Both the position numbers and the translations under genes were made by a program. The notes beneath the pieces were generated by a model. It saw only the letters and a program-made list of their open reading frames with translations. It was not told where the DNA came from and did no database searches. This document shows, in pieces, positions 13,267 to 39,629 of a DNA stretch of 64,000 nt. The number at the start of each line of letters is the position of its first letter. The first letter of the stretch is position 1. Where the stretch lies: positions 2,364,001 to 2,428,000 of the forward strand of contig JAWPMN010000001.1 of assembly GCA_033344895.1 (NCBI GenBank). The letters are read 5' to 3'. This DNA comes from Alphaproteobacteria bacterium. Its GTDB lineage: Bacteria > Pseudomonadota > Alphaproteobacteria > UBA8366 > Aestuariispiraceae.

Positions 13267-13334
13267 TGACCAACTCCGAAAGTTCGTGTTGGCCTGTCTC
13301 TAGATGGTGAATGATGTTCTGTGGAGATGAAAAA

Positions 13335-13880
13335 ATGCCGAATGAAATAAATTCGAATGCAATTCGGTCGCGCGGTGGCAAAGGCGCCGGACTCGACCTG
13401 ATCGACCGAAAGATATTAGGCGAGCTGAGCGTCAGTACGGATGTCGGTTATGCCGAACTGGGGGAGCGCGTCGGTCTGTCCGCGCCTGCCGTTCACGAAC
13501 GGGTCAAGCGTCTTCGCGCCGCCGGGATCATCAAACGCAACGTCGCCATCGTGGACGGGCCTGCGGTCGGGAAGGCCCTCCTGGCCTTTGTGCATGTCGA
13601 TACGACCGGCTGGGGCAAGACGGCTGGGTTGATGGATCTCGCGGTATTGCCGGAAATCGAGGAAATCCATTCGGTTACCGGCGACACCTGCATGATGCTG
13701 AAGGTGCGGGTCGCGGACAGTGTCGCGTTGGAAGGTCTGCTGGCCAAACTCTACGATCTGCCGGAAGTGCGGGGAACCCGGACCTATGTGGTACTGTCGA
13801 CCTATCTGGAGCGATCTCCCCAGCCCGGAATTACCGCTGATCTATCCAATCTGCAGACCCTGAAGCCGACCTCGGCGTGA
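13335..13880 (+). CDS. Lrp/AsnC-family transcriptional regulator
   Basis: 181-aa regulator. The N-terminal HTH (LDLIDRKILGELSVSTDVGY then LGERVGLSAPAVHERVKRLR) is followed by GIIKRNVAIVD and a RAM ligand domain (LLAFVHVDTTG to TYVVLSTYLERS). There is an unusual ~20-residue N-terminal extension and a ~20-residue tail. Upstream ATG/GTG codons exist to 13311; ATG at 13335 follows GTGGAGATGAAAAA. Lrp/AsnC members sense amino acids. It probably controls the divergent MFS exporter; the Rieske operon downstream has its own promoter. Confidence 0.9.
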   Translation: MPNEINSNAIRSRGGKGAGLDLIDRKILGELSVSTDVGYAELGERVGLSAPAVHERVKRLRAAGIIKRNVAIVDGPAVGKALLAFVHVDTTGWGKTAGLMDLAVLPEIEEIHSVTGDTCMMLKVRVADSVALEGLLAKLYDLPEVRGTRTYVVLSTYLERSPQPGITADLSNLQTLKPTSA

Positions 13881-13943
13881 TCGCGGCCTCCATGTTTCGA
13901 GTGACCGCCGGCAATTTTCAGGGTGACAAGTCGCGCCGATTTA

Positions 13944-13973
13944 TTTAATTTAATTGAACGCTCAAAAAAAATT
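13944..13973 (+). promoter_or_regulatory. Shared motif, copy A: BetI-type operator/promoter before Rieske gene
   Basis: TTTAATTTAA, then TTGAACGCTC, then a run of A ending AATT, lies 11 bases upstream of the Rieske ATG. TTGAACGCTCAA (13954-13965) is a near-palindrome resembling BetI-family sites (TTGAACGTTCAA-like). A closely related sequence occurs in the same orientation upstream of the FAD oxidoreductase operon (copy B, 25874-25902), matching at about 23 of 27 ungapped positions. Both copies stand out as AT-rich in GC-rich DNA. Confidence 0.6.
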
Positions 13974-13984
13974 AGTGGTGCGTT

Positions 13985-15202
13985 ATGACCAATGCCGCGA
14001 CGAACGTTCAGGTGCCTTCCGACTGGGATCGCAGGGGATTGCCTGCCTGGACCTATCACAATGAGGAATTGACGGAGATCGAGAAGGAAGTCCTTTTCCG
14101 CCGTCACTGGCAGATTGTCTGTCATGTCTCCAACGTGCCCAATCCGGGCGATTACATGTGCTTCGACATGGTCGGCGAGCGCGCGGTCGTCATGCGTGGG
14201 GACGATGGACGGATCCGGGCGTTCCACAATCTGTGCCGACATCGCGGCTCGCGTGTCCTTGCGGAGGAGCAGGGGCATTGCAAACGCGTGATCACCTGCC
14301 CCTTCCATGGGTGGAGCTACGGAACAGACGGCACGCTGCGCAACCCGGCGGTGCCGGACAGCCTGCCCAAACTGGACAAGGTGGAACACGGTCTGAAGCC
14401 GATCGAGCTGGACATCTGGATGGGGTTCATTTTCATCCGGTTCAAGGAAGGCGATCAGCCGCCGGTATCCGAACTGATGAAGCGGCATGAGGCGGAAGTC
14501 GCGCCCTATCAGACGGACGCCATGGTGCCCGCCTATGACCGTGTCTGGTCCCACGAAATGGACGTGAACTGGAAAGCGGTGCGGGATGTCGACAATGAAG
14601 GCTACCACGTGCCGATGGCTCACCCGGCCCTCCAGGACCTCTACGGCAAGAACTATTACGATGAAGCCCTGGTCGACGGCACGAACCGGTCGGTCGGTGC
14701 GTTAACGGAATCCGACGGACGGCTGTGGAGTGTGAAGAACTACAAGAAGATCCTGCCGGACCGGCCGAACCTGCCGGAGGAAAGCAAGCGGAAATGGCTG
14801 TATGTCGGCCTGTTCCCGAACACGGTGATCAGCTTCTACCCGGAAAGCGTGAACTTCTATCACGAATATCCGGTATCCGCCGGCAAGACGATCCAGCGGG
14901 GCATGTCCTATCGCTATGCCGATGAGGACCGTCAGTTGCGCCTGGCCCGGTATCTGGCCGAACGGATCGACAGGGATACCGTCGACGAGGATACGCAGCT
15001 GATCATCTGGAGCTGCGAGGCCATGGAATCCAGTGCGTTCGACGGAATCATTCTTTCCGATATGGAATATGGCGTGCGGTGCTATCATGACGCCCTGCGG
15101 GCGCGCATTCCGGTCATGAATCAGGACCACGCTCCGCCGTTGAACCAGGTTGCCGCGGCAAACGCCGCGTATTCCAGTCGCGATGCCGCGGTTGCGGAAT
15201 AG
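13985..15202 (+). CDS. Rieske non-heme iron oxygenase, alpha subunit
   Basis: 405-aa terminal oxygenase of the ring-hydroxylating/N-demethylating Rieske family. The [2Fe-2S] ligands are Cys84 and His86 (CRHRGS) and Cys105 and His108 (CPFHGW). The mononuclear iron site lies in DVDNEGYHVPMAH: His208 and His213, with the bridging Asp just before; a distal Asp is likely around 360. Members of this branch include betaine, stachydrine and carnitine oxygenases that oxidise an N-methyl group or cleave the C-N bond. No ferredoxin reductase component is visible nearby. It heads the operon with the ABC transporter (18 nt to the next gene). Substrate inferred only as N-methylated. Confidence 0.92.
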   Translation: MTNAATNVQVPSDWDRRGLPAWTYHNEELTEIEKEVLFRRHWQIVCHVSNVPNPGDYMCFDMVGERAVVMRGDDGRIRAFHNLCRHRGSRVLAEEQGHCKRVITCPFHGWSYGTDGTLRNPAVPDSLPKLDKVEHGLKPIELDIWMGFIFIRFKEGDQPPVSELMKRHEAEVAPYQTDAMVPAYDRVWSHEMDVNWKAVRDVDNEGYHVPMAHPALQDLYGKNYYDEALVDGTNRSVGALTESDGRLWSVKNYKKILPDRPNLPEESKRKWLYVGLFPNTVISFYPESVNFYHEYPVSAGKTIQRGMSYRYADEDRQLRLARYLAERIDRDTVDEDTQLIIWSCEAMESSAFDGIILSDMEYGVRCYHDALRARIPVMNQDHAPPLNQVAAANAAYSSRDAAVAE

Positions 15203-15220
15203 TTGGGGAGTGGGGGATAG

Positions 15221-16153
15221 GTGACGACGGCAGCGGAAGAGACGGATCCGTCCATAGGAAGGCCGCGCACAGCGCGCCAGTCATGGCTCAACAAGTTGGT
15301 CAGAAAGGAAGGGGTGCGGGGCTTCGCGCTGATGAGCCCGACCTTCTTCTATGCCTTGCTGCTGCTGGCGGTGCCGGTTGCCGTCACCATTACCTTCAGC
15401 TTCTGGACACAGAGCTACCTGGATCTCGACACGACCTTTACCCTGGCGAATTATCAGGAGGTCTGGTCGAAGCCGATCTATCGGGTCCTGATGCTGCGGT
15501 CCCTGATCATCGCCGGCATCGTCACGGCCGCGACGGTCATTCTGGCCTATCCGCTGGCCTACTACATCTCCTTCCATGTGAAGGAGCGTCAGGCCCTCTG
15601 GATCTTTCTGATCACGATCCCGTTCTGGACCAGCTATCTTCTGCGCATCTTCGCCTGGAAGCTGATCCTCGGCTATAACGGCGTCATCAATTCCTCCCTG
15701 ATGGAATTGGGCATCATTGCCGAGCCGCTGGAATTCATTCTTCACAATGCGAATGCGGTCGTACTGACCCTGTCCCATGCCTGGCTGCCCTTCGCGATCC
15801 TGCCGATATTCGTATCGCTGCAGAAGATCGACCGCAGCCTGCTGGAAGCGGCGAACGATCTGGGCGACGGTCCGGTCATGCGCTTCCTTCGGGTGACGCT
15901 GCCGCTGTCGCTTCCCGGTGTGATCGCGGCGTCCCTGATCGTCTTCATCCCGACCATCGGCGACTACGTGACACCAAAGCTTGTCGGCGGTAGCGATGGG
16001 CTGATGATCGCGAACATGATCCAGGTTCAGTTCGGCAAGGCCAACAACTGGCCCCTGGGCGCGGCGCTGGCCATGACCTCCATGCTGCTGGTGACGGCGG
16101 TATCCGTGGCCTTCATCCTGATTACACGGTTCCTGGGGGGGCGGGTGCGATGA
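15221..16153 (+). CDS. ABC transporter permease, PotB-like
   Basis: 310-aa permease with six predicted membrane helices. The cytoplasmic EAA loop is EAANDLGDGPVMRFLRVTLP. The sequence is typical of polyamine/opine/phosphonate-type (PotB/HMW family) importers with GDYVTPKLVGGSDGLMIANM near the end. It begins with GTG, preceded by GGGGGA. The stop overlaps the next permease ATG by 4 nt. With the PotC-like permease, the ATPase and the separately encoded binding protein at 18895 it forms one importer, most likely for a charged amine or quaternary ammonium compound used by the surrounding enzymes. Confidence 0.92.
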   Translation: MTTAAEETDPSIGRPRTARQSWLNKLVRKEGVRGFALMSPTFFYALLLLAVPVAVTITFSFWTQSYLDLDTTFTLANYQEVWSKPIYRVLMLRSLIIAGIVTAATVILAYPLAYYISFHVKERQALWIFLITIPFWTSYLLRIFAWKLILGYNGVINSSLMELGIIAEPLEFILHNANAVVLTLSHAWLPFAILPIFVSLQKIDRSLLEAANDLGDGPVMRFLRVTLPLSLPGVIAASLIVFIPTIGDYVTPKLVGGSDGLMIANMIQVQFGKANNWPLGAALAMTSMLLVTAVSVAFILITRFLGGRVR

Positions 16154-16950
16154 AAATCAAGTTCCTGACGATCTATGCCGTCGGCTTCATGATCTTTCTC
16201 TATCTGCCCGTCCTGTTCCTTCCGGTCTTCTCCTTCAACGACAGTGCCATCGTCGCCTTTCCGCTGAAGGGGTTCACCCTGCAATGGTACGAGAATCTGG
16301 CCAACGAGCCGGCGATGCATCAGGCACTGATGAACAGCCTGAAGGTCGGCATCGCAACCAGCGTGATTTCGACAATCCTTGGCATCTGCGGGGCGCGGGC
16401 AGTAACGCGTTATGAGTTCTTCGCCAAGAAATCGATCACCAGTTTCGTGATGCTGCCGCTGGTTCTCCCGGAAATCCTGGTCGCGATTTCCATGCTGGTC
16501 GTTCTGCTGCAGCTTGGCTTCAGCCTGTCACTGGTCAGCGTGGCGCTGGGTCACATCCTGATGTGCGTGCCGTTCTCCATGGCGATCCTGATCTCCAGTT
16601 TCGAAGGCTTCGACAAGTCGCTCGAAGAGGCGTCGATGGACCTGGGGGAAGGGCCGCTGATGACCTTCTTCAGGGTCACCCTTCCGGTGGTGGCGCCTGG
16701 CATCGTGTCCAGCCTGCTGATTACCTTCACCATCTCGCTGGATGAGTTCATCGTCGCCTTCTTCCTCAGCGGCACGGAACCGACATTGCCGATCTTCATC
16801 TGGGGGCAACTGCGCTTCATTGCGAAACTGCCCAACATCCTGGCCCTGGGAAGTCTGATGCTGCTGGCATCCTTCATCCTGCTCTGTGCGGCCGAATATT
16901 TCCGCCGGCGCGCCCAGCGCCGCACCGGTACCGGGGATTCTGTACTATGA
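16150..16950 (+). CDS. ABC transporter permease, PotC-like
   Basis: 266-aa second permease with six predicted helices. It starts MKIKFLTIYAVGFMIFLYLP and contains the PotC-type FSFNDS region and the EAA loop EEASMDLGEGPLMTFFRVTL, followed by FTISLDEFIVAFFLSG. Overlaps the PotB-like gene by 4 nt and the ATPase gene by 4 nt, so all three subunits are translationally coupled. Confidence 0.92.
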   Translation: MKIKFLTIYAVGFMIFLYLPVLFLPVFSFNDSAIVAFPLKGFTLQWYENLANEPAMHQALMNSLKVGIATSVISTILGICGARAVTRYEFFAKKSITSFVMLPLVLPEILVAISMLVVLLQLGFSLSLVSVALGHILMCVPFSMAILISSFEGFDKSLEEASMDLGEGPLMTFFRVTLPVVAPGIVSSLLITFTISLDEFIVAFFLSGTEPTLPIFIWGQLRFIAKLPNILALGSLMLLASFILLCAAEYFRRRAQRRTGTGDSVL

Positions 16951-18032
16951 GCACACATCCGATCATTCAGGTTCGTGGCGTCTCGCGTCTGTTCGGGGCT
17001 TTCACGGCACTGGACAATATCAGCGTCGACATCCGCGGCGGTGAGTTCTTTTCCCTGCTGGGGCCGTCAGGCTGCGGCAAGACCACCCTGCTGCGGATGA
17101 TCGCCGGTTTCGATGACCCGACCCATGGCGACATCCTGATCGACGGTCAGCCGATGGCAGGCGTTCCGGCCAACCGACGTCCCACCAACATGGTGTTTCA
17201 ATCCTATGCGGTCTTTCCGCATCTGACCGTCGCCCAGAATGTCGCCTACGGGCTGCGGCGTCAGCGACTGGACAAGAAGGAACAGGCCGACCGCGTTCAG
17301 AAGGCGCTCGATCAGGTCGGCATGGGCGCGCTGGGCGAGCGGCGATCCAACGAACTGTCCGGCGGCCAGCGCCAGCGCGTCGCCCTGGCACGGGCACTGA
17401 TCATGCGTCCGAAGGTTCTGCTGCTCGACGAGCCGTTGTCGGCGCTGGACAAGAAGCTGCGTGAGCATATGCAGGTCGAACTGAGACAACTTCAGCGTCA
17501 GGTTGGGATCACCTTCATCCTGGTCACCCACGATCAGGAAGAGGCGCTGACCATGTCGGACCGGATCGCGGTCATGTTCAACGGCGATATTGCCCAATGC
17601 GACACGCCGGAACAGATCTATCAGCACCCGAAGAGCAAGGCGGTGGCGGAATTCATCGGCGGAATGAACTTCGTCGATGCGCGGATATCAGAACGCAATG
17701 GCAAGAGCATCACCGTCGATACAGCCTGCTTCGGGCGGGTCCGGATCGCAAACCCTCATGGTCAGGACTTTGCCTCGGACTTCACGGTCGGTGTTCGTCC
17801 GGAACGCCTGACGCTGCTGATCGAAGAAAGCGACCGCGCCGAGCACGAAATGCCGGGTCGCATCGTCGATGCCTCCTATTACGGCGACATGACCTATTAT
17901 TCCATCGCGGTCGATGGCCGGGATGAGCCGATTACCGTGTCGATGCGCAATACCGTCGGCCGGCGTATCCTCAACTCGCAGGAGCCGGTCCGGATCGGCT
18001 GGGGGCCGGAAAGTCTCGTCCCACTATCCTGA
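16947..18032 (+). CDS. ABC transporter ATP-binding protein, PotA-like
   Basis: 361-aa ATPase. Walker A is GPSGCGKTT (residues 39-47), the ABC signature LSGGQ (137-141), Walker B LLLDEP (158-163) and the switch His in [17 protein letters not shown]-terminal TOBE domain (about 270-360: FTVGVRPERLTLL onwards) is standard for polyamine-type importers. Coupled to the two permease genes; ends 10 nt before the convergent methyltransferase gene. Confidence 0.94.
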   Translation: MSTHPIIQVRGVSRLFGAFTALDNISVDIRGGEFFSLLGPSGCGKTTLLRMIAGFDDPTHGDILIDGQPMAGVPANRRPTNMVFQSYAVFPHLTVAQNVAYGLRRQRLDKKEQADRVQKALDQVGMGALGERRSNELSGGQRQRVALARALIMRPKVLLLDEPLSALDKKLREHMQVELRQLQRQVGITFILVTHDQEEALTMSDRIAVMFNGDIAQCDTPEQIYQHPKSKAVAEFIGGMNFVDARISERNGKSITVDTACFGRVRIANPHGQDFASDFTVGVRPERLTLLIEESDRAEHEMPGRIVDASYYGDMTYYSIAVDGRDEPITVSMRNTVGRRILNSQEPVRIGWGPESLVPLS

Positions 18033-18042
18033 GGTTCCTGTT

Positions 18043-18822
18043 TCAGCCGGGTTTGGTGGCGCGGAAGTGATGCGGGCAATGTTCGCCCGACCGCAGCACG
18101 ATGAGCATTGCCCGCCAGGTTTCGATCATTCCGTCGAGTTCGGACTCCCCGATCGCCTCCGCAAAGAGCGGACGGTCCGGACCTGACAGGCGCTCCAGCT
18201 CCTGCTGTGCGACATCGCGATACCACGGATTACGGTTTGTCAGCCTGACATCAACGAAGCCGGCATCCTCCAGCGCCTTCTGATAGCGGTCCGGTGACGC
18301 CATGCCGAAATCCAGATCTTCCTTGGCGATGTAGTCGGCCATTTCGGGGGAGGGCGTTCCATCATGCGAAATCAGCCAGTCCGACGCCGCAAACAGGCCG
18401 CCGGGCTTCAGAACCCGATAGGCATCGCGCGCCAGGCTTTCCTTGTCCGGGATGTGGACGATGGCGTCCTTGCTGAACACCATGTCGACGGACCCATCCT
18501 CGAGGGGCAGCGGCCCCGGCTCGATCTGGCGGATCTCGACGCGATCCGATAGATCGGCCTGCGCGACCTTGCGTCGGGCATGTGCACAGACGGAGGCCTC
18601 GACATCCAGGCCGATCACCCGCCCGGCCCCGTAGTCGCGCGCCAGAGCAATGGTGATGCCGCCGGCGCCGCTGCCGATATCCACGACGGTGCGCCCCGTC
18701 AGGTCCAACCCGTCCAGCAGGCGTGCGACTTCTTCCGGTCCTCCCGGGGACAGGTAGCCCTCGCCCCAAAGGGCCTCCAGAAAGGCGATGTGGCTGTCGT
18801 CGTAGTTCTCGTCGGTGTTCAT
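18043..18822 (-). CDS. SAM-dependent methyltransferase, phosphoethanolamine N-MTase-like
   Basis: 259-aa class I methyltransferase. SAM motif I is VVDIGSGAGGITIALA; the acidic loop is VIGLDVEAS. FLEALWGEGYLSPGGPEEV, FSKDAIVHIPDKESLARDAY, RVLKPGGLFAASDWL and MADYIAKEDLDFGMASPDRY resemble plant-type phosphoethanolamine methyltransferases (the WGEGY-S-GG and KPGG-SDW blocks), suggesting a small amine acceptor. It is last in the - strand operon, 72 nt after the binding-protein gene, behind a strong hairpin that may lower its expression. A methyltransferase in an otherwise demethylation-like cluster is unexpected. Substrate unproven. Confidence 0.82.
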   Translation of the reverse strand: MNTDENYDDSHIAFLEALWGEGYLSPGGPEEVARLLDGLDLTGRTVVDIGSGAGGITIALARDYGAGRVIGLDVEASVCAHARRKVAQADLSDRVEIRQIEPGPLPLEDGSVDMVFSKDAIVHIPDKESLARDAYRVLKPGGLFAASDWLISHDGTPSPEMADYIAKEDLDFGMASPDRYQKALEDAGFVDVRLTNRNPWYRDVAQQELERLSGPDRPLFAEAIGESELDGMIETWRAMLIVLRSGEHCPHHFRATKPG

Positions 18823-18842
18823 AGCGTGCCTCCAAATGCGGA

Positions 18843-18869
18843 CGGCCGCTCCGAGGAACGGAGCGGCCG
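18843..18869 (-). terminator. Intercistronic hairpin after the binding-protein gene
   Basis: GGCCGCTCC (18844-18852) pairs with GGAGCGGCC (18860-18868), extended by one C-G pair, with a 7-nt loop. It lies between the binding-protein stop and the methyltransferase start. There is no T-tract, so it may be a partial terminator or an mRNA-stabilising 3' end, often seen after binding-protein genes. Confidence 0.5.
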
Positions 18870-18894
18870 CGCGATTATGGCCCCGGATCGAAAG

Positions 18895-19962
18895 TCAGAA
18901 GCCGACTTTGATCTGTTCGAACTCTGCGATCATCTTTTCGCGCAGTTCATACGGGACGGGGGCCTGCCACAGGGTCTTCGACCGGAAGGCTTCCAGATTG
19001 CTGTATCCCATGCTTTCCAGCACCGCCGGGTCGATCTTGTCCAGACCAGCCTGGTTGGAGTGGCCGTAGCCCCAGGCGTTGACCATGTAGTCGGCGGAGG
19101 CCTCACCCAGGAAGGCGTTGATGTAGTCATAGGCCTTTTCGTCACTGCCTTCGCCATTGGTCAGTTTGGAGAAGCCGCAGACCCAGGTTGACAGGCCTTC
19201 CTTGGTGTCGCGCTTCATGGCGACCGGATGACCTTCGGCCTGCATCGTCACCGGGGTCTCGTTCCAGGCCCAGGCCAGCGTGACCTCGCCGGCGGACATG
19301 GACTGCGCCAGTGTCGCACCGTCCTGCCAGTAGAAGCGGACATTCTGGTGAACCTTGCGCAGGAAGTCCGACGCCGCCTGGAACTGTTCGTCGGTCGCCT
19401 TGGTCCAGTCCGTCACGCCGACGGCCAGGAAGCCCAGCGCATATGCATCGTCGACATTGTCGCCGATCGATACCTTGCCCTGAAATTTCGGATCCGCGAA
19501 TGCCTGCAGGGACGCGACCTCCGACTCGTCGATTTCATCGGTTCGGTAGACCAGTGCTGTATTGCCCCAATCGATCGGCACGAACCAGACCTTGCCGTCC
19601 TCGTTGAAGCCCTGCATGTCGCGCAGACCCGGGATCAGCGTGTCATAGGCGGTGATTTTCGCCGGATCCATGGGCTCGATCAGCCCGGCATCCTTCCACC
19701 GTTCGACGCTTTGCGAACAGGGATGCGCCAGATCTGCCTTGAAGCCGGCACGCAGCTTCTGGAAGGCTTCCTCCTCGTCGCCGAAATAGGCGAAGGTCGG
19801 GCTGGCGCCGTACTTTTCGGTATAGGGCTTGTGGAATTCCGGATCTCCATATCCCGACCAGTCGAATACGATCAGGTCCTCGTCCTGTGCCGACGCCGCA
19901 CCCGCGGTGAAGACAATGGCAGTCGCGGCGAGGATCGCCGCGCGTATCGACGCTATCTTCAT
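18895..19962 (-). CDS. Periplasmic substrate-binding protein, PotD/PotF-like
   Basis: 355-aa type II binding protein. A Sec signal peptide (basic start, then AAILAATAIVFTAGAASA, cleavage near residue 25) precedes DEDLIVFDWSGYGDPEFHKP, the usual opening of polyamine/opine binding proteins. VWFVPIDWGNTALVYRTDEI and GEVTLAWAWNETPVTMQAEG are also typical. It should deliver ligand to the permeases encoded at 15221-18032 on the opposite strand, which lack their own binding protein. The Shine-Dalgarno is GGGAGAGTTAGAT. Located between the aminotransferase and methyltransferase genes. Ligand unknown. Confidence 0.92.
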   Translation of the reverse strand: MKIASIRAAILAATAIVFTAGAASAQDEDLIVFDWSGYGDPEFHKPYTEKYGASPTFAYFGDEEEAFQKLRAGFKADLAHPCSQSVERWKDAGLIEPMDPAKITAYDTLIPGLRDMQGFNEDGKVWFVPIDWGNTALVYRTDEIDESEVASLQAFADPKFQGKVSIGDNVDDAYALGFLAVGVTDWTKATDEQFQAASDFLRKVHQNVRFYWQDGATLAQSMSAGEVTLAWAWNETPVTMQAEGHPVAMKRDTKEGLSTWVCGFSKLTNGEGSDEKAYDYINAFLGEASADYMVNAWGYGHSNQAGLDKIDPAVLESMGYSNLEAFRSKTLWQAPVPYELREKMIAEFEQIKVGF

Positions 19963-20016
19963 ATCTAACTCTCCCAGTTCAGTTGGTCCCTTGGTGACCC
20001 CGCCTTGGCGGCGGTG

Positions 20017-21420
20017 TTATGCAAATCCACCCTTCGCATCGGATTCCACCGCGCGAATGGCCTCCTCCAGAATGTCGAACATGTCGTCGATCTGGTCCTT
20101 GGTGATGATCAGCGGCGGTGAGAAAACGCACATGTTGATAAGCGGCCGCACGATCAGGCCCAGCTCTTCGCATTTCCGGTCGACGCGATTGCCGAATTCA
20201 TGGTCCAGCGCCAGGCGGTCGCCATCCGCCGCGATCCGCCCCTCGACACAGCCGACCAGACCGACACCGCGCGTGTCTCCCACGACCGGCGAGTCCCGCA
20301 GGGCGTGAAGCCGTTTCAGGAAATACGGTGAGACTTCCCGGACATGTTCCAGCAAACCGTCACGTTCCATGATCTCGATGTTCTTGAGGGCCGCGGCGCA
20401 GGACACCGGATGACCGGAATAAGTATAGCCGTTTGAGAACATGATGTCCTCCTGTCCCTTGCCGGTGATCGGCTCCAGGACGCGGTCGGAAATCAGGCAG
20501 GCGCCGAGCGGAAGATAGCCGGAGGTCAGCCCCTTGGCGCAGGTGATGATGTCCGGCACGATGCCGAAGACATCCTCCGACGCGAACCAGTGTCCCAGTC
20601 GGCCGAAGCCGGTCACGACCTCATCCGAGATGTAGAGGATGTCGTTGGCGCGGCAGATTTCGTGACAACGCTGATGGTAGCCCGGGGGCGGAATGATGAC
20701 CCCGCCGGAAGCCAGGATCGGCTCCGCGATAAAGGCGCCGACATTTTCAGGCCCCGCTTCCGCGATTGCATTTTCCAGATCGGCGATCTTGGCGTCGCAC
20801 CAGTCTTCGATGCTCATGCCCTCGGGGCGGATCGACGGGTTGACGTTCGGCAGCAGAATGGCGTTTTCGCGGTCCAGATCGAACCAGCTCTTGCTGCGTT
20901 CCTTGCCGGTAACCGACGCGGCCAGATAGGTCGACCCGTGATACGCCTTCTCCCGCGAGATCACGATCTTCTTGTTCGGGCGACCCAGTCGGTTGTTGTA
21001 GAAATGCATGAAGCGGATCGCGGTATCGACCGCAGTGGAGCCGCCGGTGGTGAAGAACACGGTGTTCAGGTCACCCGGCGCCAGATCTGCCAGTTTCTTG
21101 GCAAGGATCGCCGACGGTTCGCTCGCCGTGTTCCACGGGGAATGATAGGCTAGTTGCATGACCTGTTCGGCGATGGCGTCCGCCATTTCGCGGTTGGCGT
21201 AGCCGATCTGGGTGCACCACATGCCGCCGGGCCCGTCGATCAGCCGCTTGCCGTTCTGGTCGTAGACATAGATGCCCTCGGCGCGTGCCGAGATCGTGCG
21301 ATCGGCACCGTCTTCGACCCACATCGCCTCCCAGGGATGCATGTAGTGCTTGTTGTCGTAGTCGCGGATGGTCGCCGCGGAATTGCTCAGTCCCGGATTG
21401 GACTTTTCCTCGATAAGCAT
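20017..21420 (-). CDS. Class III PLP aminotransferase
   Basis: 467-aa fold-type I aminotransferase of class III (omega-amino acid/taurine:pyruvate-like). The PLP lysine is Lys296 (TCAKGLTSGYLPLGA), the Asp pairing with the pyridine N is Asp266 (ISDEVVTGFGR), and FTTGGSTAVDTAIR forms the phosphate cup. A spurious frame extension reaches 21621; the true ATG at 21420 overlaps the GcvT-like stop by one base (TGATG), so the two are coupled. Omega-aminotransferases remove terminal amino groups from diamines, beta-alanine or taurine. Here it probably acts on the demethylated or deaminated product of the pathway. Confidence 0.92.
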   Translation of the reverse strand: MLIEEKSNPGLSNSAATIRDYDNKHYMHPWEAMWVEDGADRTISARAEGIYVYDQNGKRLIDGPGGMWCTQIGYANREMADAIAEQVMQLAYHSPWNTASEPSAILAKKLADLAPGDLNTVFFTTGGSTAVDTAIRFMHFYNNRLGRPNKKIVISREKAYHGSTYLAASVTGKERSKSWFDLDRENAILLPNVNPSIRPEGMSIEDWCDAKIADLENAIAEAGPENVGAFIAEPILASGGVIIPPPGYHQRCHEICRANDILYISDEVVTGFGRLGHWFASEDVFGIVPDIITCAKGLTSGYLPLGACLISDRVLEPITGKGQEDIMFSNGYTYSGHPVSCAAALKNIEIMERDGLLEHVREVSPYFLKRLHALRDSPVVGDTRGVGLVGCVEGRIAADGDRLALDHEFGNRVDRKCEELGLIVRPLINMCVFSPPLIITKDQIDDMFDILEEAIRAVESDAKGGFA

Positions 21421-22625
21421 CAGTACCTTCCCGGCGGGGTCGCCCCCCGCCTCGCATGTTTGAAGAAGGGGCGTTCCGCGACCGTCGCGCGGGCCATCAC
21501 CCGTTCCCATTTGCCTTCCTTGTGGTGATAGATCTCGGCCCAGAGGTCCGAGAGGATGTCGGTTCCATAGGGAACCTTCAGTTCCGCTACTGCCAGGTTC
21601 CGCTTGCAGGTAGGCGACCATAGTGCGGATGTGACATGACCCGCTTCCTTCTTCTTGCGGTGATAGACGAATGCGCCGTCGGCGGGCTTGTGGCCTTCGA
21701 TATCCAGACCGACGAGGGCGTAGCGCGGGCCGCGCTTCCGAGCTTCCAACAAGGCCCGCCTTCCGTTGAAGTGCCCCTTGTCGAAGGCGACCAGTCGGCC
21801 GAATCCCAGTTCGAACGGCGTGCGGCCCCTTGTGGGGCGCAATGCATGGTGACTGGACTGGAAATCGACGCCCGGCGCGATGAAGCCGGCTTCGATCCGT
21901 GCCATGTTCAGGGCGTCGAAACCGATCGGGCGCAAGCCATAATCCGCGCCCGCCGGCCAGAGCCTGTCGAACAGTGTCTCCGCCTTGTCGGCGGGAACCC
22001 AGATCTCGTAGCCCAGATCCCCGGTAAAGCCCGTGCGGGAGATCATCGTATCGCCATCGGCATGCATCATGTCGAACGGCTTCAGGACCTCGACGCCTTC
22101 AAAGCCGGCGCGCTCGAGAACGGCGTAGCTGGTTGGTCCCTGCAGGGACAACCCGGCCACGGAATGGCTTTCATCCGTGATGTCGACGTCGAACCCCCAG
22201 GCGATATCGTGCAGCCAACTGAATTGCGGCTCCTGGCAGCACAGTCGATAATCCGACGGGGAGAAGCGGAAAACGGTGCCGTCGTCGATCACATGCCCGT
22301 CCTCGTCGCACCACAACGAATAGCCGACGCGCATGTCGCGCATCTTCTCGACATTCCGGGTGACAAGTCGATTGATGACACGGGTCGCGTCCGGCCCAGT
22401 TACCCGATACTTGTGCATCGGCGAGATATCGAACAGCGTCGCCTGGTTGCGGATCGCGAAATACTCTGCCTCCACCGTGTCGTAACGGCGCGGCGAGATG
22501 TAGCCCGCCCAGGGCATCCAGTCTTCATGCAGGCTGAACGGTCTCAGGCGCGCATCAAAGGGCGAGGGGATCAAACCGCGCGGGACGGCGGTAGCCTCGG
22601 TTCGGGTCGGTTTGATGACGGTCAT
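21420..22625 (-). CDS. GcvT-like aminomethyltransferase (folate-binding)
   Basis: 401-aa stand-alone GcvT-family protein without a fused dehydrogenase. Typical blocks are EYFAIRNQATLFDISPMHKY, GPDATRVINRLVTRNV, WCDEDGHVIDDGTVFRFS (region of the catalytic Asp) and ISRTGFTGDLGYEIWVP. The C-terminal barrel is present. GcvT-fold enzymes pass a one-carbon unit from an amine, methyl ether or sulfonium to tetrahydrofolate, e.g. glycine cleavage T-protein, LigM or DmdA. No GcvH/GcvP genes are nearby, so a dedicated demethylase is more likely. Coupled by overlap to both neighbours. Confidence 0.9.
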   Translation of the reverse strand: MTVIKPTRTEATAVPRGLIPSPFDARLRPFSLHEDWMPWAGYISPRRYDTVEAEYFAIRNQATLFDISPMHKYRVTGPDATRVINRLVTRNVEKMRDMRVGYSLWCDEDGHVIDDGTVFRFSPSDYRLCCQEPQFSWLHDIAWGFDVDITDESHSVAGLSLQGPTSYAVLERAGFEGVEVLKPFDMMHADGDTMISRTGFTGDLGYEIWVPADKAETLFDRLWPAGADYGLRPIGFDALNMARIEAGFIAPGVDFQSSHHALRPTRGRTPFELGFGRLVAFDKGHFNGRRALLEARKRGPRYALVGLDIEGHKPADGAFVYHRKKKEAGHVTSALWSPTCKRNLAVAELKVPYGTDILSDLWAEIYHHKEGKWERVMARATVAERPFFKHARRGATPPGRY

Positions 22626-24181
22626 GCCGCAACCCTCCGCTTCTCATCGGCCAGGACAATTCTGGCCGCGTTGCAGCCGGGCAGCGCGGTGACATCGCCG
22701 CCGGGATGGCAGGACGCACCGCAGAGAAAGAGGCCGCCGACCGGCAGCGCGTAGCGATCAATCCCGGGCGCAGGTCGGAGCATCAGCATTTGGTCTGCGA
22801 TCATCTCGCCATGATGCCAATGACCGCCCGGCGCGCCGGTCATCCGCTCGATGTCCATCGGTGTCAGGATCTGCGTCCCGACCACATGGCCACCCAAACC
22901 GGAATCGTAACGCGCGAGGGTGTCTATGACGATGTCCGCCAACGCGGCACGGGTCTTGTCCGACCAGCCCTCTTTCAATTCATAGGGGGTGTATTGCACA
23001 ACGACTGAAACGATATGCTTTCCGTCCCGCGCCAGTGACGGGTCGGACAGAGTGGGAATGGTTACTTCCAGGACCGGGTCGTCGGGCAACTCGCCGTATT
23101 TCGCGCGGTTGAAGGCCAGTTCCATTCGGTCGAGCGACGGCGTCACCAGCAGGCGTCCGGCCATATGCCCGGCTGTCAGCCCGGCGAATCTGGGGGCAGC
23201 GTCAAGAACGAGATTGACCTTTGCGGTGCAGCCCTTGGCCCGGATCTTCCGGATGCGGCGCACCATCTCCGCATCGAAATGCGCCGGGCCGGCCAGCATC
23301 ATCGTGCTGCGCGGGTCGAGGCTGGACAGGACGCTGCCTGCGGCGATTTCGCTGCCATCTTCCAGAACCACACCGGTGACGCGATCGTCTTCGACCGAAA
23401 TGGCCCGCACACCGGCGCCACAGCGGATTTCCGCACCCGCGGCCTGCGCCGATTTCTCGAACGCGCGCAGGGCGCCGCCCACGCCGCCCTGGGGCACATG
23501 GCGCGCGCCACCACCGATCAGGCGGTACATCATTGTCAGAACGGTGCCGGGAGAGCGCGGTCCGATATGACCGCCCATCACGGCATCGATACCCAGCGCG
23601 CCGGCCAGTGGCCCGTCATCGATTTCGTCGAGAATCGCATCATAGGCGTTGGACAGAAGGACGCGCAGGAACTCACGCGCGTCGGCCTTACCCATTCCGC
23701 GAATGCCGAAAGCCAGTTTTGCCAGGGAGGCGGCTTCTCCCAGATCGAGTCCGTCCAGGCGAGGCGGTGGCCGATGTGTCAGGGTGGCGAGCTTGTCTCC
23801 GAACCGGGCCATGCGCTTGCGCAGCGCCCTGAAGGCTTCGGCATCCGGATGGGAAACGCCGTCGGCAAAGCTAGCGTCGTCCCCGTCCAGCAGGATATGG
23901 CGTCCGCCTTCGTCCAGAACGACGGTTGGGATGGACCGGGCTGCGAAGTTCAGGCCATGGCGTTTCAGGTCCAGGGCGTCGATCTCGGATTTGCCGAGGC
24001 CGCCCAGGAGATGCGCCAGTTGCGGCCCCGCCACGCCCGCGGCGATCTCGCCATTGGCGGCCATCCCGCCGGGAACAGCGTTCTTTTCCAGAACCAGAAC
24101 CGACTTTCCCTGCTTCGCCAGAAGGATCGCGGCGGCAAGGCCGTTATGGCCGGCACCGATGACAATGGTGTCGTATTGCAT
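22622..24181 (-). CDS. FAD-dependent oxidoreductase, phytoene desaturase-like (first copy)
   Basis: 519-aa flavoprotein. The N-terminal Rossmann motif is IVIGAGHNGLAAAILLAKQG with VLVLEKN closing the beta-alpha-beta unit. The C-terminal FAD motif is GLFLCGASCHPGGDVTALPG. This is the CrtI/PYROXD2 branch, which includes enzymes of unknown substrate in non-carotenoid clusters; no carotenoid genes are nearby. Start and stop overlap the neighbours (TGATG at 24181, ATGA at 22622-22625). About half the conserved positions match the next gene, so the pair probably arose by duplication. Confidence 0.9.
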   Translation of the reverse strand: MQYDTIVIGAGHNGLAAAILLAKQGKSVLVLEKNAVPGGMAANGEIAAGVAGPQLAHLLGGLGKSEIDALDLKRHGLNFAARSIPTVVLDEGGRHILLDGDDASFADGVSHPDAEAFRALRKRMARFGDKLATLTHRPPPRLDGLDLGEAASLAKLAFGIRGMGKADAREFLRVLLSNAYDAILDEIDDGPLAGALGIDAVMGGHIGPRSPGTVLTMMYRLIGGGARHVPQGGVGGALRAFEKSAQAAGAEIRCGAGVRAISVEDDRVTGVVLEDGSEIAAGSVLSSLDPRSTMMLAGPAHFDAEMVRRIRKIRAKGCTAKVNLVLDAAPRFAGLTAGHMAGRLLVTPSLDRMELAFNRAKYGELPDDPVLEVTIPTLSDPSLARDGKHIVSVVVQYTPYELKEGWSDKTRAALADIVIDTLARYDSGLGGHVVGTQILTPMDIERMTGAPGGHWHHGEMIADQMLMLRPAPGIDRYALPVGGLFLCGASCHPGGDVTALPGCNAARIVLADEKRRVAA

Positions 24182-25803
24182 CAGGCGGCCCTCTCCACGG
24201 ATTTGCTGCCGGATTGCCGGCCCAGATCGCCCAGGATTTCACGGGCGGCGTTGGCGCCCGGTGCGGCCATGACGCCGCCGCCCGGATGGGAGGAGGACCC
24301 GCAGACATAAAGCCCCTTGATCGGCGAGCGATAGTCCGCATAGCCGGGCACCGGTCTGTTGAACAGCAACTGGTCGAAGGTCAGTTCTCCCTGGAAGATG
24401 TTGCCCTCGGTCAGGCCGACCTCGCGTTCGATGTCCCAGGGGGTGCGGACTTCCTTGTGCACGATCAGATCGCGGAAGCCTGGCGCGTGGCGTTCGATCT
24501 TGTCGATGACCGTATCGGCGAAGGCTTCCCGGTTCGGTCCGTCCCAGCTTTCGCCGCCGGCCAGTTCATAGGGCGCATACTGGACGAACAGTGTCATCAT
24601 ATGCTTGCATGGCGGCGCCATTGTCGGATCTATATAAGTCGGTATCAGCATGTCGAAATACGGTTCCTGCGACCATCGACCGGCCTTCCAGTCGTCGTAG
24701 GCGCGATCCAGTTCGTCCAGGCTGTCCGATGCGTGCAGATCGCCTTTCAGGAAGGCCGCGTTCTTCGGTGCGGCGATGAAGTCGGGGGCGCCGTCCAGGG
24801 CGACATTGATCTTGCCGGAGGATCCGCGGATCTTGAATCGCCGCACCGCCTTCTTGAAATCGTCCGGCAGATCGCCGCCGTCGACATGCTTCAGGAATGT
24901 GCGCCGGACGTCCATGTTGGACACAACGGTCGGCGCGGTGATCTCGTCGCCGTTTTCCAGCACGACGCCGGTGACGCGCCCGCCATTCACCAGGAAGCGG
25001 TCAATGGCGCTGCCGGTGCGGATTTCGCCGCCTGCTTCGCGGAAGGCATTGGCCAGTGCGGCGCTGACCCCGCCCATGCCGCCGCGGGTAAAGCCCCAGG
25101 CGCCGATACTGCCGTCGACCTCACCCATGTAGTGATGCAGCAGGACGTAGGCCGTGCCCGGCGAATAGACGCCCAACCCGGTTCCGATGATGCCGGAACC
25201 CGCGATATGGGCCTTGATCACGTCGCTTTCGAAGAAATCGTCCAGGAATTCGCCGACCGACATGGTCCAGAAGCGCAGCGTGTCCGCCATCTCCCGCGGC
25301 CCGAGGTCGTGGAAGCGCCGGGCGAGGTACAGCATCTCCTGGATGTCACGCGGTTTCAGCCTCACCGGGTCCGGCGGCGTGCGCATCAGCAGCGGCTTGA
25401 TGAAGCGGCATTGCCGCGTCACGAAGCGCGAGTACCGGTCATAAGCGTCGACATCCTTCTTCGAATGGCGCGCAATTTCGCGGCGCAGCGCATCGTGATC
25501 CGAATAATAGGCGAAATAGTCGCCGTTCCGCATGAAGGTTGCGCCGCTCTCATACGGGATCACCTGCAGGCCGTGGCGTGGCAGATCCAGTTCGCGCTGA
25601 ACTTCGGGCCGCAGCAGACTGCAGACATAGGAGCAATTGGAATAGGTCCAGCCAGGATGCAGTTCACGGCTGACCGCCGCGCCGCCGACATAGTCGTTAC
25701 GCTCCACGACCAGGACCTTCAGTCCGCTCCTGGCCAGATAGCAGGCCGTGGTGAGACCGTTATGCCCCGCACCGACCACGATTGCGTCGTACCGATTAGC
25801 CAT
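24181..25803 (-). CDS. FAD-dependent oxidoreductase, phytoene desaturase-like (second copy)
   Basis: 540-aa flavoprotein of the same family. YDAIVVGAGHNGLTTACYLA at the N-terminus and GLYVCGSSSHPGGGVMAAPG at the C-terminus bind FAD; GWTYSNCSYVCSLLRPEV lies in the substrate domain. It is first gene of the five-enzyme operon, 70 nt downstream of the shared motif copy B. Being first and adjacent to a paralogue suggests a two-subunit or sequential oxidation of a C-N bond. The family name does not imply carotenoid chemistry. Confidence 0.9.
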   Translation of the reverse strand: MANRYDAIVVGAGHNGLTTACYLARSGLKVLVVERNDYVGGAAVSRELHPGWTYSNCSYVCSLLRPEVQRELDLPRHGLQVIPYESGATFMRNGDYFAYYSDHDALRREIARHSKKDVDAYDRYSRFVTRQCRFIKPLLMRTPPDPVRLKPRDIQEMLYLARRFHDLGPREMADTLRFWTMSVGEFLDDFFESDVIKAHIAGSGIIGTGLGVYSPGTAYVLLHHYMGEVDGSIGAWGFTRGGMGGVSAALANAFREAGGEIRTGSAIDRFLVNGGRVTGVVLENGDEITAPTVVSNMDVRRTFLKHVDGGDLPDDFKKAVRRFKIRGSSGKINVALDGAPDFIAAPKNAAFLKGDLHASDSLDELDRAYDDWKAGRWSQEPYFDMLIPTYIDPTMAPPCKHMMTLFVQYAPYELAGGESWDGPNREAFADTVIDKIERHAPGFRDLIVHKEVRTPWDIEREVGLTEGNIFQGELTFDQLLFNRPVPGYADYRSPIKGLYVCGSSSHPGGGVMAAPGANAAREILGDLGRQSGSKSVERAA

Positions 25804-25873
25804 GAACCCGCCTGTTTGCCGACTTTGCCTTCCGTCGATTTCAAGGCTAGTGCAGCGCGCCTCTTCCGTCTAT

Positions 25874-25902
25874 AATTTTTTTGAGCAGTTATTTAAATTA
25901 AA
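25874..25902 (-). promoter_or_regulatory. Shared motif, copy B: operator/promoter before FAD-oxidoreductase operon
   Basis: Read on the - strand, TTTAATTTAA is followed by ATAACTGCTC and an A-run ending in ATT, then TATAGA (25874-25869) which could be a -10 with TTTAAA 17 nt upstream. It matches copy A at 13944-13973 in sequence and in orientation toward the catabolic operon. It lies in the divergent gap between this operon and the BetI-like regulator gene. Confidence 0.6.
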
Positions 25903-25970
25903 GATCGGCTTGCGAACCCTTGGCCACTGCGGCATAGCGAAGGCGCAGGTGCGGAACATTGGGACGGAAC

Positions 25971-26654
25971 ATGGCGGACGCGAACAGCCCGACGCGCAAA
26001 CCGATCGGTCGCCCGAGAGGCGAGCAGTCCGAAAATGCCGCGCGGCGCAGGCAGCAACTGGTCGAGGCCGCGATCGAGTCGATCGTCGAGTTGGGGATGT
26101 CCGCGACAACGCTGGCCACTGTTGCCAAGGCGGCCGGGCTGTCCCAGGGCGTCGCGGTGTTCTACTTCAAGGGCAAGGAAAACCTGCTGGTGGCGACGCT
26201 GCGCCATCACTACGAGGAATACACCAATCTCTGGAAGTCGGCGGTCGCCAAGGCTTCTGACGATCCGATTGATCGGGTGATGGCCCTGATCCTGGCTGAT
26301 CTCGATCCGCGCATCTGCACCGCGCGTAACCTGTCGCTTTGGAACTCGTTCTGGGGAGAGGCCGCTGCCCGGCCGCGGTTTGCGGAACTGTGTGAGGCCT
26401 ATGACAAGGAGCGCTATGACATGCTGGTCTCGCTCTGCAAGGAAGCGTCCGGGCTCGCCATCGAAGGTTGGTCGCCCATCGATGTGGCCGATGCCTTCGA
26501 CAGCATGACGGACGGCATGTGGATCCGGATGCATATCACGCCGGATTTCATGGATCTGAATGCCGGGCGTAAGCTGCTGGCACGGCAGGCCTGCACCATC
26601 TATCCGTCCCATGCAAAGCGGATTGTCGAACTGGCCGACGCCGCGCTGGACTGA
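25971..26654 (+). CDS. TetR-family regulator, BetI-like
   Basis: 227-aa TetR regulator. The N-terminal domain RRQQLVEAAIESIVELGMSA, then LATVAKAAGLSQGVAVFYFK, resembles BetI, and the C-terminal domain has BetI_C character (LWNSFWGEAAARPRFAELCE, then DGMWIRMHITP). BetI senses choline and represses betaine-synthesis genes. Here the ligand is probably the N-methylated substrate of the cluster. A TTG start at 25959 is in frame, but ATG at 25971 after GGGACGGAAC is preferred. Divergent from the FAD oxidoreductase operon, with motif copy B between; motif copy A makes the Rieske/ABC operon a second likely target. Confidence 0.9.
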   Translation: MADANSPTRKPIGRPRGEQSENAARRRQQLVEAAIESIVELGMSATTLATVAKAAGLSQGVAVFYFKGKENLLVATLRHHYEEYTNLWKSAVAKASDDPIDRVMALILADLDPRICTARNLSLWNSFWGEAAARPRFAELCEAYDKERYDMLVSLCKEASGLAIEGWSPIDVADAFDSMTDGMWIRMHITPDFMDLNAGRKLLARQACTIYPSHAKRIVELADAALD

Positions 26655-27861: not shown

Positions 27862-28536
27862 CTAGCTCGCCAGCTTGGCGGGGCCCTTGCTGTAGCTGGC
27901 CATCAGGTCGGTGAACTTCTTGCCCTGGATGGCGATATGCGAATGCACGGTCTGGGCTGCTTTGGCCTCATCACCGGCCTTGATCGCCGTCAGGATGTCG
28001 CGGTGTTCGTCCATCGACTGCTTCAGGCGGCCGCGAACACGCAACTGCATGCGCCGGAACGGCTGCAGCCGCTTGTGCAGGCGGGAGGCTTCCGCGGCGA
28101 GGAAGCTGTTGCCGCTCGCCCGGTAGAGCGCGTTGTGAAAGATCTCATTGGCCCGATAGTAGACATCCGCATCCCCTGATTCCAGGGCACGGTCGCAATC
28201 GTCGGCCGCCGCGTGCAGGCGTCTCAGGTCGTCTTCGGTGCACAGTCTTGCTGCCAGGCGACCGCACATTGCCTCCAACTCGGCCATGACCTCGAACATC
28301 TCGAACATCTGGACGACGTCGGGCTGTCGCACGAAGGCGCCGCGGCGCGGGATCAATTCTACCAGTCCGGTTGCGGACAGCATCTGAAATGCTTCGCGAA
28401 GTGGGGTGCGGGACACGCCAAGCCGCGCGGACAGTCGGGTCTCGTCGAGGCGTTCTCCGTCCTCGAACTCTCCGGAGAGGATCATCTGCTCCAGGGATTC
28501 CCGAAGTGTATCCGCCGTTCTTCCGCTCATGGACAA
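27862..28536 (-). CDS. matR: GntR/FadR-type regulator of malonate genes (MatR)
   Basis: 224-aa GntR regulator of the FCD subfamily. The winged helix is in residues 8-75 (LSARLGVSRTPLREAFQMLS, then TGLVELIPRRGAFVR), and the helical FCD ligand domain follows; EIFHNALYRASGN and the late His residues are typical metal/carboxylate-binding positions. It is divergent from a TRAP transporter and malonyl-CoA synthetase operon, the arrangement of rhizobial mat loci, and a TTGTATACAA palindrome lies in the gap. MatR represses mat genes in the absence of malonate. Confidence 0.85.
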   Translation of the reverse strand: MSMSGRTADTLRESLEQMILSGEFEDGERLDETRLSARLGVSRTPLREAFQMLSATGLVELIPRRGAFVRQPDVVQMFEMFEVMAELEAMCGRLAARLCTEDDLRRLHAAADDCDRALESGDADVYYRANEIFHNALYRASGNSFLAAEASRLHKRLQPFRRMQLRVRGRLKQSMDEHRDILTAIKAGDEAKAAQTVHSHIAIQGKKFTDLMASYSKGPAKLAS

Positions 28537-28573
28537 ACCTTACCATCGGGCCCCGCATGCGACAATGAAGTTC

Positions 28574-28583
28574 TTGTATACAA
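28574..28583. promoter_or_regulatory. Candidate MatR operator
   Basis: TTGTATACAA is a perfect 10-bp palindrome, preceded by TTC so that the left arm reads TCTTGTA. The described Rhizobium MatR site, as I recall it, is TCTTGTA/TACACGA, so the left arm matches fully and the right arm partly. It lies 38 nt from the matR start and 107 nt from the TRAP binding-protein start. Confidence 0.7.
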
Positions 28584-28690
28584 TCTGTTTGACTTTGAAC
28601 ACATGCACGGTACCTTCGATGCGACCGGACGCAGAGCCGGACCGACGGAATCCCCGTCCGAAAACGACAATCGTCTACTGGGAGGTAGAA

Positions 28691-29680: not shown

Positions 29681-29760
29681 TCCGACCGGGGCGGGGCGGT
29701 GCAGTGGCATCGCCCCGCCTTCCGTCCTGAACCGGGGTTCAACAGGCTGGGGCTTTCGGC

Positions 29761-30312
29761 ATGTTTTCTTTTGACGATGGCGGTACGGCACCGACCGGCG
29801 GGAACGTGATCCTGCGGATCATCGGTGCCATTTCAACGATCTGCGGCTGGTTTGCCGCCTTGCTGATCGTGTTGTCGGTGGCGGTCACCTGCGAGATGAT
29901 CTTCGTGCGCGGTGTCCTGAACCAGTCGACGATCTGGCAGACCGAAGCCGTCGTCTACATGATGATCGCGGCGACCCTGCTGGGACTGCCCTATGTCCAG
30001 CGTCTGCGCGGTCATGTGAACGTCGATCTCCTGCCGATGCTGCTGCCACCTGGACCGCGCAAGGCCCTGATCGTCCTGACGCTTGTCGCCGCTGTCGTCG
30101 TTATTGCCCTGGTTCTGTATTACGGCATCCATCAATGGTACGAGGCCTGGTCCCGGAACTGGCGGTCCGACACCGTCTGGGGCGTGCGGCTGTGGATTCC
30201 CTATCTCGCCATTCCCGTCGGCTTCGGACTGTATCTGTTGCAGCTGGTGGCGGATCTCTATGCGGTGATCGTCGGGATTGACCGCAATTACGGTATCTCG
30301 GAGCACAACTGA
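29761..30312 (+). CDS. matQ: TRAP transporter small permease (DctQ-type)
   Basis: 183-aa membrane protein with four predicted helices. FAALLIVLSVAVTCEMIFVR and WQTEAVVYMMIAATLLGLPY are typical DctQ segments. It starts 80 nt after matP and overlaps the large permease gene by one base (TGATG). Together the subunits form the Na+-driven membrane complex of the TRAP transporter. Confidence 0.9.
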   Translation: MFSFDDGGTAPTGGNVILRIIGAISTICGWFAALLIVLSVAVTCEMIFVRGVLNQSTIWQTEAVVYMMIAATLLGLPYVQRLRGHVNVDLLPMLLPPGPRKALIVLTLVAAVVVIALVLYYGIHQWYEAWSRNWRSDTVWGVRLWIPYLAIPVGFGLYLLQLVADLYAVIVGIDRNYGISEHN

Positions 30313-31628: not shown

Positions 31629-31643
31629 CGGAGTACCAAGATC

Positions 31644-38540: not shown

Positions 38541-38666
38541 GCGGTCTCCCTGTTCTGCCGACCCCGCACGCGCCCGGTTGCCGAATTCGTTTCGGTGCTC
38601 GGCGACTTCATCCGGATGCGCGTTCAAGCCGTTCCTGTCACAGAAAAAGGGTAAGTCCGAAACCGG

Positions 38667-38683: not shown

Positions 38684-38700
38684 CCGGGGGGTATGACGGA

Positions 38701-39543: not shown

Positions 39544-39554
39544 CCATCCCCAAA

Positions 39555-39588: not shown

Positions 39589-39629
39589 GTATGCATCCGA
39601 AAACCGATTGAGAAGGGGGAGTTGGGCGA

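Follow-up and report, generated by a model that had tools for sequence, protein, structure and literature searches.

Are two convergent operons of one bacterium switched together by a single regulator, through a DNA element that both carry? The question is raised by a locus in a 64,000-nucleotide stretch (the window) from a member of the alphaproteobacterial family Aestuariispiraceae (assembly GCA_033344895.1, contig JAWPMN010000001.1, positions 2,364,001 to 2,428,000). Here an operon that begins with a gene for a Rieske non-heme iron oxygenase runs on the plus strand (13985-18032) toward a minus-strand operon (from 25803 down to 18043), which begins with FAD1, a gene for a flavin adenine dinucleotide (FAD) oxidoreductase. 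An AT-rich element stands before each operon, and a gene for a BetI-like regulator of the TetR family lies next to the second copy. From these features the initial annotation proposed one regulon joining both operons, a proposal that our analysis supports: the element is found at both operons in seven of seven genomes, the TetR gene is linked to one or other of them in each, and the element is palindromic. Very probably, to judge from these sequence comparisons, the element acts as operator for the TetR-type protein encoded at 25971-26654, which would repress both operons until it binds an amine. While the regulon stood, the motif and regulator had to be redrawn: the motif is better described as a 26-bp dyad, the operons converge, one importer is split between them, an unlinked gene is a probable further member, and the regulator is BetI-like but not BetI.

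An element common to two operons

Copy A (TTTAATTTAATTGAACGCTCAAAAAAAATTA; 13944-13974, plus strand) and copy B (TTTAATTTAAATAACTGCTCAAAAAAATTAT; 25872-25902, minus strand) are identical at 24/31 ungapped positions. Two copies of about 30 bp, 12 kb apart and matching at about 23 of 27 positions, had been described, and both are present where claimed. Each copy also reads toward its own operon as reported, A toward the Rieske gene (start 13985) and B toward FAD1 (start 25803), and the description of both as strongly AT-rich in GC-rich DNA holds (26/31 and 27/31 A+T in A and B, versus 38% in the window). The best match of copy A elsewhere in the window is copy B, again at 24/31, and the maximum in 30 Markov-simulated 64-kb sequences was 19/31. 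A joint pattern with up to three mismatches has exactly two matches in the 4.64-Mb genome, none when reversed as a control, and none in 100 dinucleotide shuffles of the window. Because this pattern was built from the two copies themselves, independent tests carry more weight. A weight matrix made from 13 sites in five other genomes, with the window copies excluded, ranks both copies first in the window (B 47.7 bits, A 37.1 bits); the next site scores 6.1 once shifted and reversed readings of A and B are set aside. The 13 sites include some repeats, as the FAD sites of G002, G003 and G005 are identical, as are the Rieske sites of G003 and G005.

Orthologues were sought in 144 relatives, and close orthologues of the cluster (TetR protein 63-100% identical) were found in seven genomes including the window's own, namely six of one genus and Hwanghaeella (G008). 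The initial annotation had proposed a search for the motif upstream of orthologous operons and had taken its absence there as grounds for refutation; in 7/7 genomes the element precedes both genes, Rieske and FAD-oxidoreductase. The whole cluster is conserved in the window, in its nearest relative G004 and in G001, and G008 has more distantly related importer genes instead. In the draft assemblies G002, G003 and G005 the FAD operon, which retains the element, is on a different contig from the TetR and Rieske genes, which sit together; no TetR homologue was found beside that operon at E 1e-10 in the flanking stretches examined. All seven genomes have the TetR gene linked to one operon or the other. 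An additional site in the three draft assemblies is flanked by the Rieske gene on one side and a second Pot-like importer, in divergent orientation, on the other, and could serve either.

The element also emerges when no pattern is imposed. In a scan of all 26-mers within 260 bp upstream of each window operon, it is the most conserved stretch across five genomes (G004 left out), with a mean of 23.0/26 at FAD1 versus 15.2 for the best non-overlapping stretch, and of 20.8 versus 17.8 at the Rieske gene, where the runner-up is a -35-like GTGACA region. Taken genome by genome, the top 26-mer common to the Rieske and FAD promoters is the element in 7/7 cases, at 20-22/26 and with a shift of at most four bases. 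A relaxed pattern, which was made from the known sites, matches 7/7 family genomes with a TetR orthologue and 0/7 others, with one control match overall; in the order it matches 8/43 genomes, the eighth (G017) having two matches, both at three mismatches.

Dyad symmetry and placement at the predicted promoters

Symmetry was assessed over 16 non-identical sites, with three paralogue-promoter sites and G002:C238 left out. The best of the centres tested joins the halves TTnnTTTRAnYRn and nYRYTYARAnnAA into a 26-bp dyad, with a purine/pyrimidine symmetry of 0.837 over 13 pairs and a Watson-Crick symmetry of 0.558, which was reached by 25/20,000 column shuffles. Compared over nine pairs in the same sites, this N8 centre (15.5) scores higher than an N4 centre (17.5) by purine/pyrimidine (0.896 versus 0.681) and by Watson-Crick symmetry (0.528 versus 0.451); a centre at 9.5 comes second by Watson-Crick symmetry over nine pairs (0.500 versus 0.528), though not by purine/pyrimidine symmetry (0.674 versus 0.896). 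Copy A alone also holds TTGAACGCTCAA, which fits TTGA-N4-TCAA. The N4 palindrome had been the first to be considered, on account of this stretch, and gave way to the N8 dyad, which scores better over the 16 sites.

Promoter boxes were read by eye from conservation across the seven orthologous promoters and are predictions only. The Rieske promoters have GTGACA-N17-TAWTTT in 7/7 genomes, and the first base of GTGACA always lies 22 bases from the operator. In the FAD1 promoters of the seven genomes the operator is separated by 2-4 bp from a TRGACG box downstream, and a second box, of TAGCCT or TATCYT type, comes after another 17-18 bp. Relative to these predicted boxes, operator A covers the -10 box and the start region, and operator B lies just upstream of the -35 box. 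A dyad-symmetric site over or beside the predicted target promoter, as is typical of TetR-type operators, is thus found at both operons. Direct repression fits the Rieske promoter because the operator covers the predicted -10 box and start region; repression of the FAD promoter is proposed less firmly, because there the operator sits just upstream of the predicted -35 box.

A mechanism is proposed in which a dimer of the regulator would bind the 26-bp dyad at both promoters, and both convergent operons would be held off in the absence of amine. A cationic or methylated amine, imported by the Pot-like transporter that the two operons share, would then bind the regulator and cause its release.

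The linked regulator

The gene for a BetI-like TetR protein that had been noted beside copy B is indeed there, with its ATG at 25971, some 70 bp away, and copy B lies between this gene and the divergent FAD operon. Its product is the likely DNA-binding partner and matches PF00440 (38.2 bits) and PF13977 (56.7 bits), both over the gathering scores. It falls under both curated BetI cut-offs (TIGR03384, 112.5 versus 201.3; PRK00767, 105.6 versus 118), and by these models the regulator is BetI-like rather than BetI. No match in the genome passes the TIGR03384 cut-off, and neither betA nor betB was found among the cluster and flanking proteins scanned, the rest of the genome not having been searched for them. 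An AlphaFold model of the protein (mean predicted local distance difference test score 90.6, from 15 aligned sequences) has the standard all-helical TetR fold and matches 451 PDB chains at E ≤ 0.001, the best 50 of which are all transcription regulators by title or protein name. Among the matches listed are regulators solved with choline (4kwa), a methylated amine (4nel, N,N-dimethylmet...) and trimethylamine N-oxide (TMAO; 7acm), at 15-18% identity, and these fold matches hint at an amine as the ligand class.

The recognition-helix stretch AGLSQGVAVFYFK is identical in all seven orthologous regulators. In relatives with GIVIFHF (L111, L112) or GIVNFYF (L115-L118) at this helix, other palindromes stand before FAD1. 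More widely, reading 14 more distant FAD1 promoters by eye revealed a palindrome in L111, L112, L115-L118, L120 and L123, and a repeated GAATAAGCATTC in L124. Because some of the 14 are without a visible palindrome, this co-variation of helix and palindrome is suggestive only, and co-evolution of regulator and operator in the distant FAD1 families is possible. Two further observations concern these relatives. The palindromes of L115-L118, L120 and L123 (for example TTGATTGAATCTTCATTCAAT) lie just 5' of a TGGAC-type -35-like box, with a BetI-like TetR gene nearby, and AGLSQGIVNFYF relatives carry TTGAATCTTCATTCAA palindromes.

Sites outside the cluster

Beyond the two operons, the relaxed pattern picks out two loci in the genome, at 1303896 and 3584042, which together with A and B are the four zero-mismatch matches to the 26-bp dyad; three of the four helped to shape that dyad pattern. 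Only these zero-mismatch loci were used, because at three mismatches the controls match as often as the real pattern (10 and 9 versus 9 and 9 matches in the genome). The dyad is specific only at its full 26-bp length, AT flanks included. Looser dyad patterns were dropped as search tools, the 18-bp core equalling its reversed control, and a one-mismatch match at 2778758 was dropped for want of a clear promoter context.

The site at 3584042 (CTTTTGTTTAAATAACTGCTCAGATAAA, 39.1 bits) has AAATAACTGCTCA in common with copy B, an unbroken run of 13 identical letters. It stands 64 bp upstream of the probable ATG of a gene for a 677-aa flavoprotein, 1.2 Mb from the cluster. Over nearly its entire length this protein resembles histamine dehydrogenase (668 bits) and also trimethylamine dehydrogenase (508 bits). 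Among the eight genomes searched, orthologues at least 71% identical occur in G004, G001 and G008, with sites before the gene in G004 (32.0 bits) and G001 (25.7 bits); in G008 the match starts on the TetR strand, 46 bases past the point where the TetR match ends. G002, G003 and G013 have only 47-48% homologues, which are without the site, and in G005 nothing matched at the threshold applied. On this sequence evidence the amine-dehydrogenase-like gene at 3.58 Mb is a likely third member of the regulon.

The site at 1303896 (G000:C1:1303896-1303921, locus L147 6897) lies just before a paralogue of FAD1 (about 41% identical), with major facilitator superfamily and tripartite ATP-independent periplasmic (TRAP) transporter genes further on. 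It is found in the window genome and G004, not in five others viewed, one of which ends at a contig end. It was left out of the regulon count because a second BetI-like TetR, described below, could own it. Two more matches are treated as candidate sites only, one at G002:C238 and one at G001:C12 (locus L149 6407), the latter a strong dyad (38.7 bits) before a different Rieske gene; in that species the regulon may include other oxygenases.

Alternative explanations

The element might instead belong to the promoters themselves, as an AT-rich UP element or a -10 region common to both. Its base composition suits this idea, as do the -10 box that it holds at the Rieske promoter and its position upstream of the FAD -35 box, where UP elements lie; we nevertheless consider it very improbable. 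The element is placed differently at the two predicted promoters and its conserved letters are dyad-symmetric, and for these reasons an UP element or a bare promoter was rejected as the main explanation. It is moreover confined to the half of the 14 family genomes that have a TetR orthologue, the 43 genomes of the order adding one more with two three-mismatch matches, and 13 of its letters recur at the unlinked amine-dehydrogenase-like gene. If the element is an operator, it could belong to another factor, and three candidate partners were compared: the cluster TetR, the Lrp/AsnC-type protein encoded at 13311-13880, and a second BetI-like TetR encoded at 1.435 Mb (G000:C1:1434981-1435550, locus L193). 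That either of the latter two is the shared regulator seems improbable. The Lrp gene does adjoin copy A, but in the flanking stretches examined it stands beside the cluster in just one of the six other genomes, the nearest relative G004, and it was rejected on this ground. With TIGR03384 the second TetR reaches 124 bits, and the start of its own gene carries the palindrome TTGAACGATCAATCAA, with the same half-site spacing as the cluster dyad; yet its recognition helix ETSAGIVHHYFGDK is different and it is 31% identical to the cluster TetR, and it is the cluster TetR that is linked to one operon in every one of the seven genomes.

The same cluster TetR might also act in two ways, as a repressor at the Rieske promoter and an activator at the FAD promoter. 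An operator that lies over the -10 box and start in one case and directly 5' of the -35 box in the other, as the predicted boxes place it, would suit such a division, and a TetR-type precedent for both actions is given by Vibrio harveyi LuxR (PMC2628434). We regard this arrangement as unlikely, though worth keeping in mind: the spacing from operator to -35 box ranges from 2 to 4 bp among the genomes, which is loose for an activator that touches the polymerase, and in 4/7 genomes the divergent TetR gene may be controlled from site B as well. A broader form, in which a bifunctional TetR switch represses the oxygenase/importer operon, activates the FAD/GcvT operon and reaches the unlinked amine-dehydrogenase-like gene and the FAD1 paralogue as an undescribed amine-degradation regulon, is a somewhat longer shot.

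Repression of both operons by the cluster TetR is the explanation that we favor, and the following points weigh against it. The dyad is imperfect, with 7/13 exact pairs in each window copy, and at the FAD promoter the operator is outside the core promoter, an unusual place for a simple repressor. Among the matches listed for the 14 family genomes, the 18-bp loose core with at most one mismatch is no commoner than its reversed control, and zero-mismatch 18-bp cores occur elsewhere too, with examples in G009, in G011 and at another locus of G008. The seven genomes are not independent, six being of one genus, and the sites are partly redundant, as three FAD sites are mutually identical and that of G004 equals the window's. 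At the amine-dehydrogenase-like gene, the G001 site is within the range of other AT-rich stretches (27.5 bits in L112, 22.2 in L111), and among the 14 distant FAD1 promoters no palindrome was seen by eye in L113, L114, L119, L121 and L122. The structural matches are generic, the best 50 of 451 being 14-22% identical and including fatty-acid, sterol, efflux and quorum-sensing regulators. Finally, the aromatic position of CntA Y203 is Asp in 8/8 Rieske orthologues, so that the mark of quaternary-ammonium Rieske enzymes is absent.

Genes of the cluster and the likely substrate

The features of the two operons are collected in Table 1; that each run of genes is one transcript was judged from spacing and strand.

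Table 1. Genes, operators and predicted promoters of the two convergent operons (window coordinates).
Feature	Position	Strand	Remarks
Predicted Rieske promoter, GTGACA-N17-TAATTT	13923..13951	+	-10 box inside operator A; by eye
Putative operator copy A, 26-bp imperfect dyad	13945..13970	+	Centre between 13957 and 13958; upstream of Rieske/potBCA operon
Rieske non-heme iron oxygenase, catalytic subunit, GbcA/CntA-like	13985..15202	+	Rieske motif, bridging Glu205, His208, His213
ATP-binding cassette (ABC) permease, PotB-like	15221..16153	+	
ABC permease, PotC-like	16150..16950	+	
ABC ATPase, PotA family	16947..18032	+	TIGR01187 over cut-off
S-adenosylmethionine-dependent methyltransferase	18043..18822	-	Terminal gene of minus-strand operon
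PotD-like solute-binding protein	18895..19962	-	Completes importer with plus-strand permeases and ATPase
Class-III aminotransferase	20017..21420	-	Start at ATG 21420 by orthologue comparison
GcvT-like folate-dependent methyl/aminomethyl transferase	21420..22625	-	Best solved match: TMAO demethylase
FAD2, second CrtO-like flavoprotein	22622..24181	-	
FAD1, CrtO/phytoene-desaturase-like flavoprotein	24181..25803	-	Leading gene of minus-strand operon
Predicted FAD-operon promoter, TAGACG-N17-TAGCCT	25844..25872	-	Starts 3 bp downstream of operator B; by eye
Putative operator copy B, 26-bp imperfect dyad	25876..25901	-	Centre between 25888 and 25889; between FAD operon and divergent TetR gene
BetI-like TetR-family regulator	25971..26654	+	PF00440, PF13977; likely DNA-binding partner

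A single Pot-like importer is split between the operons, with its permeases and ATPase in the Rieske operon and its binding protein in the FAD operon. The longest open reading frame of the aminotransferase (20017-21621) overlaps the GcvT gene, and the orthologues favor the shorter form. As for the surroundings, the Lrp/AsnC-type gene lies directly upstream of the Rieske operon; genes for a TRAP transporter (DctP-DctQ-DctM) and, after them, for a malonyl-CoA synthase-like protein occupy 28406-33155; and more polyamine genes are found at 36469-41536, where PotB-like and PotA-like ABC proteins are encoded together with an N-carbamoylputrescine amidase that passes its curated cut-off.

A cationic or N-methylated amine is our best guess at the pathway substrate, on account of the polyamine-type importer, the GcvT-like protein that matches a TMAO demethylase, the aminotransferase, and the enzyme resembling trimethylamine dehydrogenase (TMADH). 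The homarine, betaine and N-methylproline pathways were considered as ready-made matches and set aside, as no matching cluster was among the open-licence papers listed; nor was a paper on this regulon among them.

Significance and relation to known systems

The switch as a whole is well supported but conventional, and it probably serves the use of methylated or cationic amines. It would define a regulon with a testable operator, one that ties a Rieske oxygenase, two CrtO-like flavoproteins, a GcvT-like protein, a class-III aminotransferase and a TMADH-like protein into a joint pathway not obvious from annotation, and finding which compound releases the regulator would identify the pathway substrate. 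What is learned here may also apply in other families of the class, because FAD1-type genes recur there and 12/14 of the more distant FAD1 stretches have a BetI-like TetR match.

The closest regulatory parallels are the BetI proteins of Escherichia coli and Ruegeria pomeroyi (BetI1 and BetI2), TetR-type repressors of bet genes that respond to choline, with which the cluster regulator shares the TetR fold, the PF13977 C-terminal domain and a palindromic operator near the promoter. According to PMC12442346, R. pomeroyi BetI1 also governs betB, located outside the bet cluster, and binds the box ATTGACG*CGTCAAT, with BetI2 boxes departing from the consensus. The BetI1 box so described has four bases between TTGA and TCAA, whereas eight are favored in the window sites; the box alone does not exclude a BetI, because the BetI2 boxes also depart. 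The differences extend to gene content, with Rieske, GcvT-like and flavoprotein genes in place of betABC, and to the regulator itself, which is under the BetI cut-offs.

V. harveyi LuxR, a TetR-type protein that is described in PMC2628434 as having a 21-bp dyad operator, resembles the proposed regulator in its long dyad and in serving several promoters as one factor. It is a global quorum-sensing regulator, whereas the regulon proposed here from sequence would be small and catabolic.

Among the enzymes, the oxygenase is closest to the Group V (quaternary-ammonium) Rieske proteins CntA and GbcA. CntA is its best solved match by sequence, and the bridging glutamate (the CntA E205 position) and two histidines are kept in 8/8 orthologues viewed; for CntA, PMC7948474 assigns bridging to E205 and a pi-cation role to Tyr203. 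It departs from this group in the Asp at 203, in a GbcA score of 131 bits against an NCBIfam cut-off of 670, and in that no reductase was found among the cluster proteins scanned. The unlinked flavoprotein, with its near full-length matches, is like the trimethylamine/histamine dehydrogenase family.

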